A DNA stretch of 64,000 bases from Acidovorax temperans. GTDB lineage: Bacteria > Pseudomonadota > Gammaproteobacteria > Burkholderiales > Burkholderiaceae_C. The DNA lies in the NCBI RefSeq assembly GCF_006716905.1, contig NZ_VFPV01000002.1:682001-746000 (forward strand). Reading direction: 5' to 3'. The notes below the pieces were generated by a model. The model saw only the letters and a list, made by a program, of their open reading frames with translations, did no database searches and was not told the DNA's origin. The translations under genes and the position numbers were made by a program. Shown one piece after another: positions 3 to 9,184 of this stretch (the stretch's first letter is position 1; each line of letters opens with the position of its first letter).

Positions 3-1667
3 AAGGCCGGTGGCACGGCGGTGGATGCCGCCGTGGCCGTGCAGGCCGTGCTGGGCCTGGTCGAGCCGCAGTCCAGCACCATCGCTGGCAGCGCCTTCAT
101 GATGTATTACGACGCCGCCAACAAGAAGGTGGTGGCCTATGACGGCCGCGAAACCGCACCCGCCGCCACCGGCTACTACCTGGCGCGGCAGGACCAAAGC
201 AATGCCTCGTCTCCCGCCCCCGTGCCCAGCGCGCGGCGCAGCGGCCGCTCCATTGGTGTGCCGGGCGTGATGCGCATGCTGGACATGGCCCACAAGGAAC
301 ACGGCAAGCTGGCCTGGGCGCCATTGTTTGACGAAGGCATTCGCCTGGCGTCATCGGGCTACAAGATCCCTGGCCGCATGGGCGACGCCATCCGCACCAA
401 CGCCGCCAACCTGCAGCTTGATGCCAACGCCGTGGCCGCCTACTTCAACGCCGACGGCACACCCAAGACCACAGGCACCGTGACCACCAACCTGCCTTAC
501 GCCCAGTCGCTGCGCACCCTGGCCACCGGCGGGGCCGATGCCATGTACTCCGGCCCTCTGGCGGAAGCCATCGTGGCCAAGGCCGCCCAATCGGTGGGCG
601 ACGATGCAGCCAAAACGCCTATCACCCCCAGCCTGATGACGGTCACCGACCTCAAGAACTACCAGGCCAAAAAGCGCGAGCCGGTGTGCACCACTTACCG
701 CAGCAGCTACTACATCTGCACCATGTCGCCACCGTCTTCGGGCGGCATCGCCATCGCGCAATCGCTGGGCATTCTGGAGAACTTCGACCTGTCTCAATAC
801 GGCCCCACCAACCCCAGCAACGAGGGCGGCGTGCCCAGTGTGATGGGCGTGCATTTGGTGTCCGAAGCCCAGCGCCTGGCCTATGCCGACCGCGACAAGT
901 ACGTGGCCGACACCGACTTCATTCCGCTGCCCGGTAACGGCGTGTCGTCGATGATCGACAAGGCCTACCTCAAGCAACGCGCATCGCTCATCAACCCCAA
1001 TGGCAATTCCATGGGCACGGCCACTGCGGGTAATTTGGGCAACGTGCCGTTAGGCGTGGACAAGACCGTGGAGAAGGGCACCACCCACTTCTCTATCGTC
1101 GATGCCTACGGCAACGTGGTGTCGATGACCTCCACCGTCGAATCCAGCATGGGCTCGTACCACATGGTGGGTGGCTTCCTGCTCACCAACCAGCTCACCG
1201 ACTTCTCGGCACAGCCCGTTGACGCCGCAGGCGTGCCCGTGGCCAACCGCGTCGCTCCCGGCAAGCGGCCCCGCAGCACCATGGCCCCGACCCTGGTCTT
1301 CAAGGGCACCGGCCCTGGCGACTTTGTGATGGCCACCGGCTCGCCCGGCGGCGGCACCATCATCCAGTACGTGCTCAAGACCGTGGTGGGTGCGCTGGAC
1401 TGGGGGCTCGATGCACAGCAGGCCACCTCGCTGGTGAACTTTGGCGCCACCAACAGCCCCACCACCAACGTGGACGGTGCCAATACCTCGCTGGATCTGA
1501 CCGCCCTGATCGACGGCCTCAAGGCCAAGGGCCACACGGTGAACAACGGCGCGCAGTCCAGCGGCGTCTCCACCATCATGCGGGTCAACCGCAATGGCCA
1601 GACCAAGCTGGAAGGCGGCGTGGATCCTCGCCGTGAGGGGATTGTGCTGGGCGATGGTGCCCTCTGA
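3..1667 (+). CDS. ggt: gamma-glutamyltransferase, 5' end outside window
   Basis: Gamma-glutamyl transpeptidase of the N-terminal nucleophile hydrolase family, normally a periplasmic enzyme that removes the gamma-glutamyl group from glutathione and related compounds. The frame is already open at base 3, so the signal peptide and the start of the small-subunit-distal part are missing; 554 residues are visible. The visible start matches the family segment A-G-G-x-A-V-D-A-A. The autoprocessing site is T-T-H-F-S at about 1080-1094, whose first Thr should become the nucleophile after self-cleavage. S-P-G-G-G near 1341 fits the oxyanion-hole region. One oddity is that the segment usually reading S-G-I-G-G-G reads S-T-I-A-G-S. 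A strong terminator follows 60 bases after the stop. Confidence 0.93.
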   Translation, partial: KAGGTAVDAAVAVQAVLGLVEPQSSTIAGSAFMMYYDAANKKVVAYDGRETAPAATGYYLARQDQSNASSPAPVPSARRSGRSIGVPGVMRMLDMAHKEHGKLAWAPLFDEGIRLASSGYKIPGRMGDAIRTNAANLQLDANAVAAYFNADGTPKTTGTVTTNLPYAQSLRTLATGGADAMYSGPLAEAIVAKAAQSVGDDAAKTPITPSLMTVTDLKNYQAKKREPVCTTYRSSYYICTMSPPSSGGIAIAQSLGILENFDLSQYGPTNPSNEGGVPSVMGVHLVSEAQRLAYADRDKYVADTDFIPLPGNGVSSMIDKAYLKQRASLINPNGNSMGTATAGNLGNVPLGVDKTVEKGTTHFSIVDAYGNVVSMTSTVESSMGSYHMVGGFLLTNQLTDFSAQPVDAAGVPVANRVAPGKRPRSTMAPTLVFKGTGPGDFVMATGSPGGGTIIQYVLKTVVGALDWGLDAQQATSLVNFGATNSPTTNVDGANTSLDLTALIDGLKAKGHTVNNGAQSSGVSTIMRVNRNGQTKLEGGVDPRREGIVLGDGAL

Positions 1668-2004: not shown

Positions 2005-4170
2005 TCAAATCGTCAGCGGGTCCACATCCACCAGCCAGCGTATCAAGCCCTTGTGCTCGCGGTTGTGGCGGGTGGTTTGCAGGATGGGCTGCCACGCGGT
2101 CAGAAAGCGTTGCAGGGCCGCGCGGCTGGGGCTTTCCATGAGCATTTGGGCGCGTTCCACATTGGCCACGCGCTGGATGGTGAGCGGCACGGGGGGGAAC
2201 AGCGTCACGGCCTCCAGCCCCGGCAGTGCAGCCGCGTGGGCGGCGGCGGTGGCAGCCTGCAAAAAGCCCTGTGCGGCCTCTTGTGTGCGGGCATCGGCGC
2301 GCACCAGGGCCTGGTAAGCGAACGGAGGCATGGCCGCCTCTTCGCGTTCTTTCAACTGCTGCGCGGCAAAGGCTTCGTAGTCGTGCCTGCGCAGCGCTTC
2401 GTACACCGCGTGCTGGGGGTGAAAGGTTTGCACCCACATCTCGCACGGTGTGCCCTGGGCCGCCATGTAGGCGGCGTCGCGGCCGGCGCGGCCAGCGGCC
2501 TGCATCAGCAGCGCGAACAGCCGTTCGGGCGCGCGGAAGTCACTGCTGAACAACGCGCCATCGGGTTGCACGGCAGCCACGAGGGTGATGCGGCGGAAGT
2601 CGTGGCCCTTGGCGATCATTTGCGTGCCCACCAGCACGTCCACTTCGCCCGCGTGCACTTGGGCCAGTTGCGCCTCCAGCGCGCCCTTGGCCTTGGTGGT
2701 GTCGGCATCGATGCGCGCTACGCGGGCGGCGTTGCCATCGGGGCGCTGCACGTTGCGCAGCAGGGCGGCCAGTTGTTCTTCGAGTTGTTCGGTGCCCCGG
2801 CCCATGGCGTGGATGTCAGGGCTGCCGCAGGTGGGGCAGTGGTGGGGCACGCGCACGGTGAAGCCGCAGTGGTGGCAGCGCAGGGTGCGGTCCGTCTTGT
2901 GGAAGACCTGGTGCGCGCTGCAGTGCGGGCAGTCGCTTTTCCAGCCGCAGTCCACGCAATGCAGCACGGGCGCGTAGCCCCGGCGGTTGAGCAGCACCAT
3001 GCTCTGCTCGCCCCGCGCCACGCGTTCGGTGATGGCTTGCAGCAGCGGCGCGCTGAACACGGCGCGCCGGGGCTGCTGGTTCATGTCCACCCGGCGCACG
3101 CTGGCCAGGGCGCCCGCGCCAATGCGGCTGGGCATGTGCAGCCGCAGGTAGCGGCCGCCTTCGGGGTCTTCGGGCGTGGGGGGGCGGCTGGCGTGCCAGC
3201 TTTCCAGTGATGGCGTGGCGGAGCCCAGCAGCACTTTGGCGCCCTGCTCGCGACCGCGCCAGATGGCCAGATCGCGCGCCGAATAGCGGGCCCCTTCCTG
3301 CTGCTTGTAGCTGGGGTCGTGCTCTTCATCGACCACGATGAGCTTGAGCCCTGGCAGGCTGGCAAACACCGCCATGCGTGTGCCCAACACGATGCGCGCC
3401 GTGCCGCTGTGCGCTGCCAGCCAGCTTTTGAGGCGCTGCGGGTTGGTCATGCCGCTGTGCAGCGACACCACCGCGCCCGCGCCAAAGCGTGGCGCAAAGC
3501 GGCTGACAAAGCGCTCTTCCAACTGGGGCGTGAGGTTGATTTCGGGCACCATCACCAGCGCTTGCGCGGTGGGGTCGGCTTCCAGCATCTCTTGCACGCA
3601 GCGCAGGTACACCTCGGTCTTGCCGCTGCCGGTGCTGCCAAACAGCAGAAAGGGGCCAGGGTTTGAGGCAATTTGGGCTCTGGCGCTTTCCTGTTCAGCG
3701 GTAAGTGCTATGTTTTCAATAGCGGTTCCAGAATCATCTGCGGCCAGTGCCGGGCGGCGCAGGCGCCGTGCGAGCTGCTCGGGTTTCAGGTCGCGCAACT
3801 GGGGCGGCAAGGCGGCCAGTGCCACCTCGCCCAAAGCCCGCTGGTAATAGCGCGCCGTGAAGGCCACCAGGCGGCGCCAGGGCAAATCCAGCGGCGCCAC
3901 GCCTTCCAGCACGCCGCCGATGGCGCGCAGGGTGGCGCCGTCGGGCAGCTCGCCGGTGGCGGCATCGCTGTCCCACACCACGCCCAGCACCTCGCGGTTT
4001 CCCAAGGGAACGCGCACCAGCGTGCCGGGCGGCAGGGGCCGGTCGCAGGCATAGCTCAGCAAATCACCCACGCCGCTGTGCGACGGTGTGTGCAGGGCTA
4101 CCGGGGCGATGAAAGGGGAAGAAGCACTCAAGGCTCTGGCGTGAAAGGCAACGGGGGCTGTGATTGTCAC
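2005..4170 (-). CDS. priA: primosomal replication helicase PriA
   Basis: PriA restarts stalled replication forks: a superfamily 2 3'-to-5' DNA helicase that loads the primosome. It has an N-terminal DNA-binding domain, Walker A G-S-T-G-S-G-K-T at about residues 178-185, the D-E-E-H box (V-V-D-E-E-H-D-P-S), and the zinc-binding insert with paired cysteines (C-V-D-C-G-W, C-P-H-C, C-H-H-C, C-P-T-C). The C-terminus L-V-D-V-D-P-L is typical. I chose the GTG at 4170 (721 residues) over an ATG at 4251, because the extra 27 codons run into a dispersed repeat (element A) and lack homology to PriA. About 20 residues just before the Q-motif L-T-A-E-Q are encoded by an AGCGCT-type repeat. Confidence 0.95.
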   Translation of the reverse strand: MTITAPVAFHARALSASSPFIAPVALHTPSHSGVGDLLSYACDRPLPPGTLVRVPLGNREVLGVVWDSDAATGELPDGATLRAIGGVLEGVAPLDLPWRRLVAFTARYYQRALGEVALAALPPQLRDLKPEQLARRLRRPALAADDSGTAIENIALTAEQESARAQIASNPGPFLLFGSTGSGKTEVYLRCVQEMLEADPTAQALVMVPEINLTPQLEERFVSRFAPRFGAGAVVSLHSGMTNPQRLKSWLAAHSGTARIVLGTRMAVFASLPGLKLIVVDEEHDPSYKQQEGARYSARDLAIWRGREQGAKVLLGSATPSLESWHASRPPTPEDPEGGRYLRLHMPSRIGAGALASVRRVDMNQQPRRAVFSAPLLQAITERVARGEQSMVLLNRRGYAPVLHCVDCGWKSDCPHCSAHQVFHKTDRTLRCHHCGFTVRVPHHCPTCGSPDIHAMGRGTEQLEEQLAALLRNVQRPDGNAARVARIDADTTKAKGALEAQLAQVHAGEVDVLVGTQMIAKGHDFRRITLVAAVQPDGALFSSDFRAPERLFALLMQAAGRAGRDAAYMAAQGTPCEMWVQTFHPQHAVYEALRRHDYEAFAAQQLKEREEAAMPPFAYQALVRADARTQEAAQGFLQAATAAAHAAALPGLEAVTLFPPVPLTIQRVANVERAQMLMESPSRAALQRFLTAWQPILQTTRHNREHKGLIRWLVDVDPLTI
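3671..3726. repeat. AGCGCT-type repeat copy 2, inside priA
   Basis: The bases resemble the repeat at 15105 (aatttgggc.ctggcgc) and end in a gctatgttttcaatagc block. The copy sits in frame within priA and encodes the linker T-A-I-E-N-I-A-L just ahead of the helicase core. No frameshift or stop results. Confidence 0.5.
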
Positions 4171-4198
4171 CGCGCCGCCGTGGGGCAATCCCAAAATT

Positions 4199-4313
4199 CT
4201 GTGGATAACTTTGTTGAAAGCCTGTAGCGACCAGCGCCAAACCCGCGCCACTGCTGGCTTTGAACAGATTGCCCGGCAAATAGGCAGATTGAAAAAATCC
4301 TTCTAAATCAAGC
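4199..4313 (+). repeat. DnaA-box element A (pair 1, upstream copy)
   Basis: One of four copies of an element of about 115 bases. It opens with CTGTGGATAACTTTGTTGA, carrying a perfect DnaA box (TTATCCACA on the minus strand, 4200-4208). Further blocks lie at fixed distances from the first base: gcgccaaaccc at +35, ttgcccggcaaa at +70 and aatca at +107. It lies just upstream of the priA start. The copy shares the TTGAAAGCCTGT variant with element C. Confidence 0.75.
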
Positions 4314-4388
4314 AGATGAAGCGATTTTTGGCATTTTTTCTGTGGTATGCCGTACGCCATTTCCGCGTTGTCGGTGCAGCTGCGGCAC

Positions 4389-4399
4389 TGTGCATAAGT
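4389..4399 (+). promoter_or_regulatory. DnaA-box-like site TGTGCATAA between elements A and B
   Basis: The 11-mer tgtgcataagt contains TTATGCACA on the minus strand, which fits the DnaA-box consensus TTATNCACA. It starts 190 bases after the start of element A; the same 11-mer starts 188 bases after element C at 7904. It points the same way as the boxes in the elements. Confidence 0.5.
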
Positions 4400-4534
4400 G
4401 CAACAGCCTGCGGCGTCAAGCCCCCGGCGTGGATGGCCGTCAGATTTGCTGCGAAGGTAAAACTTGCGCCACTGGTTGCAGATGTGGTGCTAAGTTGTTG
4501 ATTTTTCTGATGCTTTTCCTGTCATTCAGAAAAT

Positions 4535-4649
4535 CTGTGGATAACTTTGTTGATATCGTCGGTATACCCGCTCCAAACCCTTGAAATGCTTGGGCCGGAG
4601 TACTTTGCCCACCAAATCGGCACAGGGCAGGTGGCTGTATGAATCAACC
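4535..4649 (+). repeat. DnaA-box element B (pair 1, downstream copy)
   Basis: The second element of the priA-hemE gap starts 336 bases after element A and has the same orientation. It has the DnaA box at 4536-4544, gctccaaaccc at +35, ttgcccaccaaa at +70 and aatca at +107. It shares the TTGATATC and GCTCC variants with element D. The gap 4171-4752 holds only these elements and the hairpin at 4655; I see no convincing gene. Confidence 0.75.
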
Positions 4650-4654
4650 ACTTA

Positions 4655-4738
4655 GCGCAGCGGCGGTGGGGCTGCAAAAGAATTTCAATCGGCCTGAGGG
4701 CCAGATTTGAAATTTTGATGCCTGCACCGCCGCTGTGC
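4655..4738 (-). terminator. large nested hairpin after hemE
   Basis: Outer arms of 14 bases (gcgcagcggcggtg / caccgccgctgtgc, one G-A/T mismatch) enclose an inner hairpin with arms aatttcaa / ttgaaatt and a ggcc / ggcc core. It lies 15 bases downstream of the hemE stop codon, so it probably ends or protects the hemE transcript. It lacks a clean T-run. Confidence 0.5.
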
Positions 4739-4752
4739 ACAACCGGCGTGGT

Positions 4753-5868
4753 TCAGCCGGCCTGGCGCTGCGAACGCGAGTAGCTGTGCACCGCCTCCAC
4801 CAGGGCTGCAACGTGCTCTGGCGGGGTGAACTGGCTGATGCCGTGGCCCAGGTTGAAGATGTGGGTGGGGCCGGTGGTGGTGCGGTCGGTGTGTGGCTTG
4901 CCAAAGCTATCCAGCACCTTGTGCACCTGCTGCACGATTTGCGCTGGCGGAGCGAACAGCACGTTGGGGTCGATGTTGCCTTGCAGCGCTTTGCCGGGGC
5001 CACCTGCCGTGCCACCCACAATGGCGCGGGCCTTGCCCAGGTTGGCCGTCCAGTCCAGGCCCAGCACTTCGCAGTCGATGTCCTTCATGTCTTCGAGCCA
5101 GATGCCGCCGCCCTTGGTGAAGACGATGCGCGGCACGTCCATGCCGTCCACGCCCGTGCGCTTGAGTTGGGCCAGCACCCGCTTGGTGTAGGCCAGGCTG
5201 AATTCCTGGAAGGCGCCATCGGCCAGCACGCCGCCCCAGCTGTCAAACACCATCACGGCTTGCGCGCCAGCGTCGATCTGCGCGTTGAGGTATGCGGCCA
5301 CGCTGTCGGCGTTCACGGCCAGGATGCGGTGCATCAGGTCGGGGCGGGCGTACATCAGGCTCTTGACCAGGCGGTAGTCGTCGCTGCCCTTGCCTTCGAC
5401 CATGTAGCAGGCCAGCGTCCAGGGGCTGCCCGAGAAGCCGATGAGCGGCACGCGGCCGTTGAGCGCCTTGCGGATGCTGGTCACGGCGTCGAACACGTAG
5501 CGCAGCTTGTCCATGTCGGGCACGGTCAGCTCGGCCACGGCGGCCTCGTCGCGCACCACCTTGGCAAAGCGGGGGCCTTCGCCCTCGGCAAACGACAGGC
5601 CCAGGCCCATGGCGTCAGGCACGGTGAGGATGTCGCTGAACAGGATGGCTGCGTCGAGCGGGAAGCGCTCCAGCGGCTGCAAAGTCACCTCGGTGGCGTA
5701 ATCCACGTTGGTGGCCAGACCCATGAAGCTGCCAGCCTGGGCGCGCGTTGCCTTGTATTCAGGCAGGTAGCGGCCCGCTTGGCGCATGAGCCACAGGGGG
5801 GTGTAGTCGGTAGCCTGGCGGCGGCAGGCGCGCAGGAAGGTGTCGTTGGTGAGTGGGGCGTAGCTCAT
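4753..5868 (-). CDS. hemE: uroporphyrinogen decarboxylase
   Basis: HemE decarboxylates the four acetate side chains of uroporphyrinogen III to give coproporphyrinogen III, in the cytoplasmic haem pathway. The 371-residue length is standard. Signatures are the substrate-binding segment [12 protein letters not shown] near residue 28, G-F-S-G-S-P-W-T-L, the F-D-S-W-G-G loop, and the C-terminal N-L-G-H-G-I. I chose the ATG at 5868 (M-S-Y-A-P-L-T-N-D), where homology begins, over the upstream ATG at 5901. An 87-base gap separates it from the upstream MFS gene on the same strand. Confidence 0.96.
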
Positions 5869-5955
5869 GGCCCCGATTGTCGCAGGCTGCGCGCCTGGCA
5901 CCGCATGGCCGCGTTTGCGCCAGCGCAGAAGATGGAGAGGCCGAGGGGCTTGGCC

Positions 5956-7536
5956 CTACCGCTCGGCAATGTAATGCGACATCGTTGTGGTTTGCCCAGG
6001 CGCCAGGAAGGCGCGTACTTCGGTCTCCAGCGTCTGGTCGGCCACCGTGGCGCGGGCGCGCTGGTGCAGGTAGTCGGCCCACGATTCGACGATAAAGCGC
6101 TCCACATACCGCGAGGGTTGCCCCAAGTCTTTGTAGACCCGCCAGAAGGTGGCGCCATCGCGCCGACGCGGCGCCTTCAGGCGGCTGATGGATTCCAGAA
6201 ACGCGGCATCGGTGCCGGGTGTGATGCGGTAGCCAATCTCCACCGCCACGGGGCCCGCCTCGGGCAAGGGCTCGGCTTCGATGAACAGTTCGTCCCAGGG
6301 GGTGGCGGGTGTCACTTCGTGCAACGCGCCCATGCGCAGCGGCATGGTGCGCGCCAGCAGCAGGCCCACGCCCATGGCAGCGGCGGCGGCGCATAGGGTG
6401 GGCGCCAGCCCGGCCACGTCAGACGCCGCGCCCCAAAACGCCGAGCCCAGCGCAAAAGCCCCCAGGGCTGCCACCATGTGCAGCGCCACCGCACGCGAAC
6501 GTACCCAGGGCGGGGCGCTGGCTTGCGTGGCGGTGTTGAAGGTGGACATCGCAGACATCCACGCCGCGCCGCCCAGCAGCATGGCCAGGTACACCAGGGG
6601 AGCGATTTTGGTCAGTGCCGCCACCACCATGGCCGCCGCAAAGACGAGGCCGCTGACCAGCACGATGGTGTCCAGGCTGAACCGTGCCCGCACCTTGCCC
6701 AGCACCAGCCCGGCGGTCACGGCCCCGGTGCCCAGGCAGCCCATGAGCAGGCCGAACCCCTGTGCGCCCGTGCCCAGCTGGCGCTGGGCAATCACCGGCA
6801 GCAGCGCCCACAGGGCCGAGCCCGCGGCGCCAAAGGCCATCACCCGCACCAGTTGCGCAAGGATCAGGTCGGAATGCCAGGCAAACCGCAAGCCGCTGAG
6901 CATGCCGCCCCACAAGCGCTCGGCCGGCAGGCGCGACGGTGGATGGGCCTTGGGGGGCCAGCGGCGAATGGACTCCCAAATCACCAGGGTGGACAAGACC
7001 GAGATGGCAAACACCCACCCCGCCCCCCAATGCGCAAACACCAGCCCGGCCAGCGTGGGCCCCACGGCGCGGGCCGCGTTGTAGGCAATGCTCACGGCCG
7101 TGATGGCCTGCGGCCACTCATCGCGCGGCACCGGGTCGATCACTGAGGAATTCCACGCGGGCGTCAGCATGGCCGTGCAGCATCCGCCCACAAACACCAG
7201 CAGCAGCACCGTGGCGGGGCCGCCCCAACCCAGCAGCACCAGCAGCGTCAGCAGGGAAAAAGCGGCGGTTTGGGCGATCAGCGCCCCGGAGATGAGGCGT
7301 CGGCGGTCGTTGGTGTCGGCCAATACGCCGGCGGGCAGGGCCAGCAAAAACATGGGCAGAAACACGGCCGTCTGCACCAGCGCTGCCAGGAATGAAGAAC
7401 CGGTCAGCTCCACCATCAGCCAGGCCGCTGCCATGGCCTGCATGCCATTGCCCACAAAGAACACCCCCCCGCACAGCCAAAGCCCCCGGAAAGCAGGTTG
7501 GCGCAGGGGGCTCCACAAGGAGGTAGAAGAAGACAT
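5956..7536 (-). CDS. MFS transporter, EntS/MFS_3 type
   Basis: A 526-residue inner-membrane permease with about 12 hydrophobic segments over the first 410 residues. It resembles the MFS_3 (enterobactin-exporter-like) family: the N-terminal L-W-S-P-L-R-Q-P-A-F-R motif, then N-G-M-Q-A-M-A-A-A-W-L-M, and the loop D-T-N-D-R-R-R. The last 100 residues form the soluble tail found in this family, which looks like an antibiotic-biosynthesis-monooxygenase-like ferredoxin fold. The substrate cannot be told from sequence. The ATG at 7536 is chosen because the 46 upstream in-frame residues are arginine-rich and unlike a transporter. Confidence 0.85.
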   Translation of the reverse strand: MSSSTSLWSPLRQPAFRGLWLCGGVFFVGNGMQAMAAAWLMVELTGSSFLAALVQTAVFLPMFLLALPAGVLADTNDRRRLISGALIAQTAAFSLLTLLVLLGWGGPATVLLLVFVGGCCTAMLTPAWNSSVIDPVPRDEWPQAITAVSIAYNAARAVGPTLAGLVFAHWGAGWVFAISVLSTLVIWESIRRWPPKAHPPSRLPAERLWGGMLSGLRFAWHSDLILAQLVRVMAFGAAGSALWALLPVIAQRQLGTGAQGFGLLMGCLGTGAVTAGLVLGKVRARFSLDTIVLVSGLVFAAAMVVAALTKIAPLVYLAMLLGGAAWMSAMSTFNTATQASAPPWVRSRAVALHMVAALGAFALGSAFWGAASDVAGLAPTLCAAAAAMGVGLLLARTMPLRMGALHEVTPATPWDELFIEAEPLPEAGPVAVEIGYRITPGTDAAFLESISRLKAPRRRDGATFWRVYKDLGQPSRYVERFIVESWADYLHQRARATVADQTLETEVRAFLAPGQTTTMSHYIAER

Positions 7537-7715
7537 GGCAGCAAAGTGGGGCAGGAAACCGCTGGGGCAGCGGCGGCGGCAGATAGTACGGTGAAGGGCG
7601 TGCCCACCGAGCGTGACAGCATATCGCCGTGCGACCAAGCTTGCACGAACCCTGCGTGCTTGGCGTGACGGCACAAGGCTTCACCCCCTGCAGTGGAAAA
7701 AGCGATTCAGAGTTT

Positions 7716-7829
7716 CTGTGGATAACTTTGTTGAAAGCCTGTCGGTACCCGCGCCAAACCCGCATGCCACAAGGCTTTGCACACATTGCCCACCAATTCA
7801 GCAATTCAAAAAAACGTTATGAATCAATC
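7716..7829 (+). repeat. DnaA-box element C (pair 2, upstream copy)
   Basis: It has the same block order as element A: DnaA box at 7717-7725, gcgccaaaccc at +35, ttgcccaccaat at +70 and aatca at +106. It shares the TTGAAAGCCTGT variant with element A. It lies in the 760-base gap between the MFS gene and nhaR, which holds no gene I can support. Confidence 0.75.
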
Positions 7830-7903
7830 ATCTGAGGCGGAAATGGTGCTTTTTGTGTGCTAGCCAGTGACGCTATTTGTCTGACACTCTGCATACAAAA
7901 ATG

Positions 7904-7914
7904 TGTGCATAAGT
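7904..7914 (+). promoter_or_regulatory. DnaA-box-like site TGTGCATAA between elements C and D
   Basis: The 11-mer tgtgcataagt is identical to that at 4389 and lies at nearly the same distance (188 against 190 bases) from its upstream element. The surrounding bases 7830-8028 are visibly richer in A+T than the coding DNA. Confidence 0.5.
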
Positions 7915-8028
7915 CAAGGGTCGAGCGACGGAGGGGGTGCTGGATTTGCGCCGTCTTTTTCAAAAAAATATGCATAAAGCGACGCAAGTGGTTGATTCAT
8001 CGGGGATTTTGGGGAAAGTCCAGAATTT

Positions 8029-8143
8029 CTGTGGATAACTTTGTTGATATCACCCCCGCGTACGCTCCAAACCCGCGTGGATACGCGCTTTCATTGGTTT
8101 GCCTAGCAAAAAGGCATTTCCAAACATCGTAAGTAAATCAATG
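8029..8143 (+). repeat. DnaA-box element D (pair 2, downstream copy)
   Basis: The fourth element starts 313 bases after element C in the same orientation. It has the DnaA box at 8030-8038, gctccaaaccc at +35, ttgcctagcaaa at +70 and aatca at +107. It shares the TTGATATC and GCTCC variants with element B. Confidence 0.75.
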
Positions 8144-8244
8144 ACTTACAGAGTTTTTGCGAAATGCACAGGCCCACGCTCCTGCTTCTTCAGGAGCCGG
8201 GCAATCACCCTTGCTGAATGTGCGTAACCTGAGGTACGGGGTGG

Positions 8245-8278
8245 CGTTCGCGCAGCCCCGCGCGGGGCTGCGCGAACG
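8245..8278 (-). terminator. perfect 34-base GC-rich palindrome after nhaR
   Basis: Two 17-base arms (cgttcgcgcagccccgc and its exact complement) abut with no loop. It lies 18 bases downstream of the nhaR stop and could end that transcript, though no T-run follows on either strand. A DNA-binding site is the alternative. Confidence 0.5.
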
Positions 8279-8296
8279 GATTCTCTCGGCTGGTTC

Positions 8297-9184
8297 TTAC
8301 ACCTGCGGCTTTTCAAGCAACCGCAGCAGCAGCGGGTGCATGACCTTGCGGGCGCTGTAGATCAGGTGAAAGTGCTCCTCGATCTCGGGAGTGGTGCCCA
8401 CATGCTCCAGCCCGTGCGTCACCCGCAGGTGCTCGCCCAGAAACACGGGCGCGGGCATCACGCCCATGCCTGTGGCTGCAAAGGTGCTCAGCAAGGCGCT
8501 GTCCTCGAACTCGCCTGCAATGCGGGGGCGAATGCGCTCCCGTTCAAACCAGTGGTCAATCCGTGCACGCATGGCTGCGTGGTCGGTGGGCAGCAGCACA
8601 GGCACCACTGCCAGGCTTTTGGGGAAGGCCTGCCGCGCCGCGTCTGCCCACAAGGGGGGCGCATACCAGGCCACGGCGCTGGTGCTGAGCAACTGGCTGG
8701 TGGTTTTGAGGGCGGGGTTGGGCGGCGCCGGGCGGTCTGCCAGCACGGCGTCGAGCTTGTGCATGGCCAGCTCACCCAGCAGGGGCTGGAACTCGCCCTC
8801 ATGGCATAGCAGCCGCAGGTGGGGCTCGTCCAGCACGGTGGTCAGCAGCCGGTGCACTGCCAGTTTCGCAATGCCGTCAGAGATGCCTAGGTTCAGCCGC
8901 AACGTGGGCCCGGCGGCGGCTTCGCGCACCCGGTGCGGCAATTGCTCGCCCAGCGCGAAGATCTGATCGGCCTCGTGCATGGCCGCCACGCCGGCATCGG
9001 TCAGCACCAAGTTGCGTCCTTCGCTGCGCAGCAGGCTCACGCCGAGGGCTTTTTCCAGTTCGCGCACCTGGGCGCTGATGGTTTGTACCGCCATGTCCAG
9101 CCGCTCTGCCGCACGGGCAATTCCGCCCTCTTTGGCCACCACCCAGAAGTAATACAGGTGGCGGTAATTGAAGCTTTGGCTCAT
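8297..9184 (-). CDS. nhaR: LysR-family transcriptional regulator, NhaR type
   Basis: A 295-residue LysR-type regulator. The N-terminal winged helix-turn-helix (residues 1-60, F-N-Y-R-H-L-Y-Y-F-W-V-V-A-K-E-G-G) is the NhaR subtype rather than the general LysR start, and the C-terminal 200 residues form the effector domain. NhaR proteins respond to sodium and alkaline conditions in enterobacteria; here the neighbour is a divergent TerC/Alx-type gene, itself often alkali- or metal-linked, so regulation of that gene is a plausible inference. I chose the ATG at 9184, which has GGAG 7 bases upstream, over one at 9208. Confidence 0.85.
   Translation of the reverse strand: MSQSFNYRHLYYFWVVAKEGGIARAAERLDMAVQTISAQVRELEKALGVSLLRSEGRNLVLTDAGVAAMHEADQIFALGEQLPHRVREAAAGPTLRLNLGISDGIAKLAVHRLLTTVLDEPHLRLLCHEGEFQPLLGELAMHKLDAVLADRPAPPNPALKTTSQLLSTSAVAWYAPPLWADAARQAFPKSLAVVPVLLPTDHAAMRARIDHWFERERIRPRIAGEFEDSALLSTFAATGMGVMPAPVFLGEHLRVTHGLEHVGTTPEIEEHFHLIYSARKVMHPLLLRLLEKPQV

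Follow-up and report, generated by a model that had tools for sequence, protein, structure and literature searches.

A candidate datA-like control locus of tandem DnaA-IHF modules in Acidovorax temperans and related Burkholderiales

What purpose is served by a non-coding element, built around a DnaA box, that occurs four times in two intergenic gaps of one bacterial chromosome? The question arises in a 64,000-nucleotide stretch of Acidovorax temperans DNA (contig NZ_VFPV01000002.1, positions 682,001 to 746,000; hereafter the window), where the core 19-mers of the four copies, modules A to D, start at 4199, 4535, 7716 and 8029 of the forward strand. A preliminary description had recognized these copies, their pairing (A-B, 336 bases apart; C-D, 313 bases apart) and four shared blocks at offsets 0, +35, +70 and +107, and all of these hold. 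Judged by its sequence, the locus is very probably a DnaA-IHF site of some kind. We estimate a probability of roughly 0.52 that it acts as a datA-like, DnaA-inactivating control locus of Burkholderiales. Because the fixed order and spacing of its DnaA and IHF sites are kept in many relatives, it probably acts as a switch and contributes to restricting chromosome replication to a single round in each cell cycle.

Order and direction of the DnaA and IHF sites

The fourth block, aatca, is the opening of a predicted IHF site, for which passages of PMC4585315 give the consensus WATCAANNNNTTR and those of PMC10950094 the reverse form. The full unit comprises a reverse IHF site at -44 (often present), a DnaA box at 0, a forward IHF site at +105/106 and a further DnaA box about 187 bases from the first. 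In module A, box I (TGTGGATAA, 4200..4208, forward strand; TTATCCACA on the opposite strand) is followed on the same strand by the IHF site that contains the fourth block (4306..4318, one mismatch) and by box II (TGTGCATAA, 4389..4397, +189 from box I). Module B, preceded by an inverted IHF site of perfect consensus (4491..4503, reverse strand), has box I at 4536..4544, a perfect IHF site at 4642..4654 and box II, TGTGCACAA, at 4734..4742, all forward. Module C likewise lies on the forward strand, with box I at 7717..7725, an IHF site with one mismatch at 7822..7834 and box II (TGTGCATAA) at 7904..7912, +187 from box I. An inverted, perfect IHF site (7985..7997, reverse strand) also precedes module D, whose box I (8030..8038) and perfect IHF site (8136..8148) are forward; where its box II is due, TGTGCGTAA (8219..8227, forward) falls outside the box consensus and may be decayed.

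The third box noted earlier within each pair is box II of A or of C, and the six boxes recognized at that time do face the same way, as does a seventh, at 4734, absent from the earlier list. The two gaps contain these seven TGTGNAYAA boxes, all on one strand, and seven IHF sites, of which four are perfect and three have one mismatch; one of the latter (4574) lies at no module position. Perfect IHF sites are rare: six were found in 380 kb sampled, three of them in another DnaA cluster on contig C3, compared with four in less than 4 kb at the present locus. The 18-mer TGTGGATAACTTTGTTGA has exactly four matches in the 4.65 Mb genome, all at these elements, and its reversed control has none. TGTGGATAA with up to one mismatch occurs 11 times in the window versus 3.8 expected, a count reached by 0 of 100 shuffles. 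There is thus strong support for the original proposal that this is a DnaA site whose fixed spacing is under selection, and assigning the fourth block to an IHF site makes the proposal sharper.

The idea that the pairs represent one duplicated compound element fares less evenly. Order, spacing, the bases directly after the core (common to B and D) and the match between A and C (77% of 126 columns) argue for it. The proposed match of B to D is weak (55%, versus 59-62% for the other four pairings), and A-B and C-D are only 58% identical overall.

Several smaller features accompany the boxes. A possible degenerate second box, TGTTGAAAG, which may bind DnaA, lies 12 bases beyond box I of module A (4212..4220, forward); the same position is occupied by an intact TGTGGACAA in L257 and by TGTGGATAA in L261, two loci from other families. 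A motif, TTTTGTGCTAG, occurs at about +130..+145 in many members of the genus, and a similar one is found before module B. In all four cores a C precedes the box (4199-4204 in A), giving CACAG on the opposite strand; passages of PMC7364216 describe CACAG as a methylated motif at DnaA boxes of Burkholderia cenocepacia.

Conservation and spacing of the modules

Beyond this genome, the core (one mismatch or fewer) was found in 33 of 35 other genomes of the genus, 31 of the 35 carrying it as a pair spaced 333-336. The refuting outcome named beforehand, that related genomes would show no additional copies with this layout, thus did not occur. The exact 19-mer is present in 171 of 399 genomes of the family, spread over 71 of 141 genera. 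All loci were found through the DnaA box, so a comparison of its decay with that of the filler would carry selection bias. The other sites were read without an IHF filter, in 59 cores of the genus and 39 of other genera of the family (8 of the 32 loci of the latter having been found as close pairs). All 59 cores of the genus are accompanied by a forward IHF site that has no more than one mismatch (25 perfect), 46 have a perfect -44 site and 57 a box II; among the 39, such a forward site is present in 30 (always perfect), a perfect -44 site in 19 and box II in 35.

When named genomes were scanned for the core in combination with TTGATT from the -44 site, at least 120 stretches were returned. 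Among the 80 titles listed, all but two belong to Comamonadaceae, other Burkholderiales or betaproteobacteria, as we take their genera to be placed; the exceptions are a Gammaproteobacteria bin and a Methylobacillus metagenome bin. The listed stretches yielded 133 usable modules, in which the forward IHF site lay outside the search pattern. A perfect forward IHF site occurs at +104..108 in 111 of them and AATCAA in 124, and 127 have a box II within +180..201. Of 44 control windows for the forward IHF site, 43 hold none, and the remaining one reflects a second IHF-like site near +50 (31 modules). The boxes of these modules are oriented forward in 269 cases (133 by construction) versus 3 reverse, and in a thinned set of 109 modules the blocks stand above filler of near-zero information.

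Beyond the family, a core match was obtained in 8 of 24 genomes of other families, again without the IHF filter. In seven of these eight loci, an IHF-like site differing from the consensus by no more than one base lies at +103..106, versus 5 of 2112 control windows; the eighth core (L263) may be a chance match. Within this group, the IHF-like site at +104..106 is perfect in L257, L259 and L261 and has one mismatch in L258 and L260. The genes near these five loci vary (hemE with priA; hemE with a TnpB-like gene; an ABC ATPase; HSP90; an ExbB-like gene).

That the element is a structured RNA gene or a mobile non-coding repeat, as the preliminary description had also suggested, is the least probable of the explanations considered here. 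Conserved dyads, AAGCCTTGA..TCAAGGCTT and TGCC..GGCA, do exist at about +42..+62 and +70..+90, and the named dyad pairs in 68.6% of cells versus at most 50.8% for slid versions, as any dyad would; the first of them overlaps the second IHF-like site near +50. However, RNAalifold returned no consensus pair for the region from about +20 to +104 in 45 of 74 thinned modules, and the named dyad was mostly no better than shuffles, five dyad measures being reached by 33 to 250 of 500. No Rfam family attained its gathering score in 4000-8400. Given that the copies are syntenic and local, with few extra copies that lie close together and with the locus mostly at a single syntenic place, a mobile repeat is disfavored as well.

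The distances between the sites vary in a restricted manner. Box II, present in 105 of the 109 thinned modules, lies at a modal distance of 187 from box I, and 16 of the 17 modules that depart from the mode by more than 3 bases do so by 8-12. From the IHF site to box II the distance is 80-83 in 80 modules, 91-93 in 13 and 72-73 in 3. Among 50 thinned pairs, 38 have spacings within 312-314, 323-327 or 334-336, a grouping that is modestly unlikely by chance (0.035 with randomized group centers), and the other 12 (263, 272, 355-480) do not cluster. It is suggestive that these spacings fit whole-turn changes in a looped protein-DNA complex, the phasing being better for box II than for the pairs. 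The natural spacing variants are a ready set for working out the helical-phase rules of IHF-DnaA complexes.

The number of cores varies too, with four in G005, six in G022, five in G032 and seven in G034; those of G022 and G034 lie in the hemE-priA gap and in the same lysR-MFS gap that holds C-D. With up to seven cores in a single region (G034), the boxes could be thought merely to soak up DnaA near the origin, and passages of PMC12371093 report that E. coli accumulates DnaA boxes near oriC, which is read there as titration. Yet plain titration would work without IHF sites and without any set order or spacing of the boxes, and so fails to explain the locus; we regard it as an unlikely account.

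Genomic place and the candidate origin

Modules A and B are bounded on the left by a gene transcribed away from the locus (2005..4131, reverse strand, start codon uncertain) and on the right by one transcribed towards it (4753..5868, reverse strand, start approximate). We take these to be priA and hemE, respectively, from what is established about the two families, in addition to synteny by tblastn. The same placing, with hemE directed towards the module and priA away from it, is seen in 96 of the 120 listed stretches. Of the other 24, thirteen break off near the module, on the flank where the absent gene would lie; seven have priA without hemE despite sufficient room, two (L155 and L177) have neither gene, and two are otherwise arranged. 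Altogether priA is found in 113 of the 120, in 98 of these at 50-199 bases from a box.

This close link makes transcriptional control the strongest rival: DnaA and IHF bound upstream of priA might regulate it, or act in hemE-priA attenuation, and box-bound DnaA can block transcription, as passages of PMC10950094 describe. We nevertheless judge it improbable, though the best placed of the alternatives. Modules occur without priA as a neighbor, not only in L155 and L177 but also in L077 (hemE and an SPFH gene), L258 (hemE and a TnpB-like gene) and L259-L261, and the C-D pair lies before the MFS gene in the lysR-MFS gap. Module B sits 336 bases further out, and neither a promoter of the sigma-70-like type, the only type sought, nor a terminator was found in 4050-4800.

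The adjacency to hemE raises a different possibility, since alphaproteobacterial origins such as Caulobacter Cori combine DnaA boxes and IHF beside hemE (passages of PMC1914354). In addition, the dnaA-rpmH gap (L040, 10600-11010), a usual site of an origin, holds one TGTGNATAA box only. The locus might then be the replication origin or a second one, which we consider very unlikely. Neither of the two genomes sampled shows a switch of GC skew at the locus: 17 of 18 sampled stretches are positive in this genome, and in G011 all 12 stretches from 3.0 to 4.92 Mb are negative (elsewhere in G011, 0.1-1.0 and 2.6 Mb are positive, 1.8 Mb is negative and the surroundings of dnaA are near zero or mixed). 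Moreover, DnaA-trio-like repeats with boxes in fixed places occur at other sites, which in five complete genomes are 39-72 kb from dnaA, and together with the skew they disfavor an origin at the present locus. Unlike Cori, the locus also lies 3' of hemE.

These trio-like repeats mark a candidate oriC, at L043 10100-10800 (C4:16.1-16.8 kb) in this genome and in L127-L131 of relatives. In all five relatives, the TAGTAGTAG repeats precede two boxes, TGTGGACAA at +22 and TGTGGATAA at +140, and in this genome the arrangement occurs twice, with TGTGGATAA at +140 or +141. A gene that we take to be rdgC-like adjoins it in four of the five relatives. The trio form AGTAGTAGAGCA, the one form scanned, matches only contig C4 of this genome. 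Because the 12-base trio pattern by itself is weak, with the reversed control matching about as often and three of nine genomes lacking a match, the candidate is based on its context, the boxes at +22 and +140.

From the element to this candidate origin the distance is 589-636 kb, or 12.1-12.7% of the chromosome, in five of five complete genomes; four of the nine genomes compared give no figure (three have no trio match, and in G000 the two lie on different contigs). In nine genomes the element is about 450-650 kb from dnaA, with its boxes on the strand opposite dnaA in every one.

Comparison with datA and weighing of the evidence

In the literature found, E. coli is the bacterium for which IHF-dependent control of the datA type is described, and passages of PMC5742627 give its features as same-facing boxes, an IHF site between them, optimized intervals and a position near oriC. 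The present locus shares this architecture. It is non-coding, the seven boxes of the window all face one way, an IHF site lies between two boxes in the direction of the boxes, spacing appears to matter, and its distance from the candidate oriC is comparable to the figure of about 10% of the chromosome for datA. When E. coli datA was put through the same scan, it read box, 65, IHF, 97, box, all in one direction, with further one-mismatch boxes on either strand; a present module read on the same strand gives box II, 78, IHF, 109, box I at the modal offsets. Interval lengths are thus kept here also, at values unlike those of E. coli. The DnaA residues needed for datA action, R281, R285, L290 and R334 (passages of PMC5742627), are all as in E. 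coli in the DnaA of this genome, as are the box-reading residues R399, H434 and T435. IHF alpha and IHF beta are encoded and pass the cut-offs of NF001401 and NF001222. Given this architecture, the common direction, the closeness to oriC, the kept DnaA residues and the presence of both IHF subunits, datA-like inactivation is the most likely role of the locus.

By analogy with datA, IHF bound in the cell would bend the DNA between box I and box II and so bring together, head to tail, the DnaA molecules on two same-facing boxes. This contact would stabilize an oligomer of ATP-DnaA in which ATP is hydrolyzed. DnaA would be inactivated soon after the fork passes and doubles the locus, which lies at a distance from the candidate origin of about 12% of the chromosome. 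The dose would be raised by the repetition of modules in tandem, with one pair here and another beside lysR.

A complex of similar composition could have the reverse effect, releasing ADP from DnaA and reactivating it in the manner of DARS1 or DARS2. DARS2 likewise combines DnaA boxes with IHF (passages of PMC5742627). According to the same source, however, box I of the DARS core is opposed to boxes II and III, whereas all boxes here face one way, and in E. coli the distance of DARS2 from oriC is about 20% (64.0 versus 84.6 min). We rank reactivation below both titration and control of priA, and ATP hydrolysis rather than ADP release would be the expected outcome.

Resemblance to datA need not imply common descent. 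The place differs, datA lying between glyVXY and queG and the present locus between hemE and priA, so that, as far as place shows, the locus is not datA by descent. Unlike datA, the present modules often have the inverted IHF site at -44, and they occur in tandem and as duplications. They are distributed across one family and part of its order, and hydrolysis at them is presumed. For the third, low-affinity box of datA (box 7), the counterpart here may be the degenerate box 12 bases from box I. Passages of PMC10950094 and PMC5742627 also mention clusters of DnaA boxes in Bacillus subtilis and Streptomyces coelicolor that lie outside oriC and hold back initiation, a likeness by description.

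A number of observations weigh against datA-like inactivation. No core match (one mismatch or fewer) was found in 2 of the 35 genomes of the genus, the exact 19-mer is missing from 228 of the 399 family genomes (a count of exact matches), and 9 of the 39 cores from other genera have no forward IHF site at up to one mismatch. Within the window, no inverted -44 site was found upstream of A and C, whose forward IHF sites are the imperfect ones. The departure of the intervals and of the neighboring genes from those of datA counts in the same direction, the closeness of priA to the boxes would also suit promoter control, and a datA-like role leaves unexplained the dyads that lie after box I and before the IHF site. 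The IHF proteins fall narrowly below the TIGR00987 and TIGR00988 cut-offs. Because Hda is encoded in this genome (34 of 40 genomes pass its cut-off), a second route of DnaA inactivation probably exists, and the absence of Hda is ruled out as an argument for a datA-like locus.

No published description of a DnaA-IHF locus between hemE and priA was found in the titles, abstracts and passages searched. Compared with datA, three features are to our knowledge new: the IHF site in inverted orientation, the repetition of modules in tandem and the position between hemE and priA. It is conceivable, though doubtful, that Burkholderiales have their own class of replication-control locus, consisting of repeatable IHF-bracketed DnaA modules in species-tuned number (1-7 cores), independent of datA and perhaps derived from an ancient hemE-linked origin. 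The alphaproteobacterial origin beside hemE, with its DnaA and IHF sites (passages of PMC1914354), suggests that the two might have a past in common. As the candidate is compact, sharp in architecture and common to many Burkholderiales, with natural variants in dose and spacing, datA-type control outside enteric bacteria becomes a directly testable question in laboratory strains of Acidovorax, which grow easily.

The second DnaA cluster of this genome (L042 9707-10050, C3:464707-465050) was seen in 1 of 60 genomes with a strict pattern. It is flanked by what is presumably an SDR-type gene on one side and a presumed methyltransferase/ribBA group on the other. It consists of three units, each with a DnaA box, CAAGTnnTGTATGAG and a perfect IHF site in reverse orientation.

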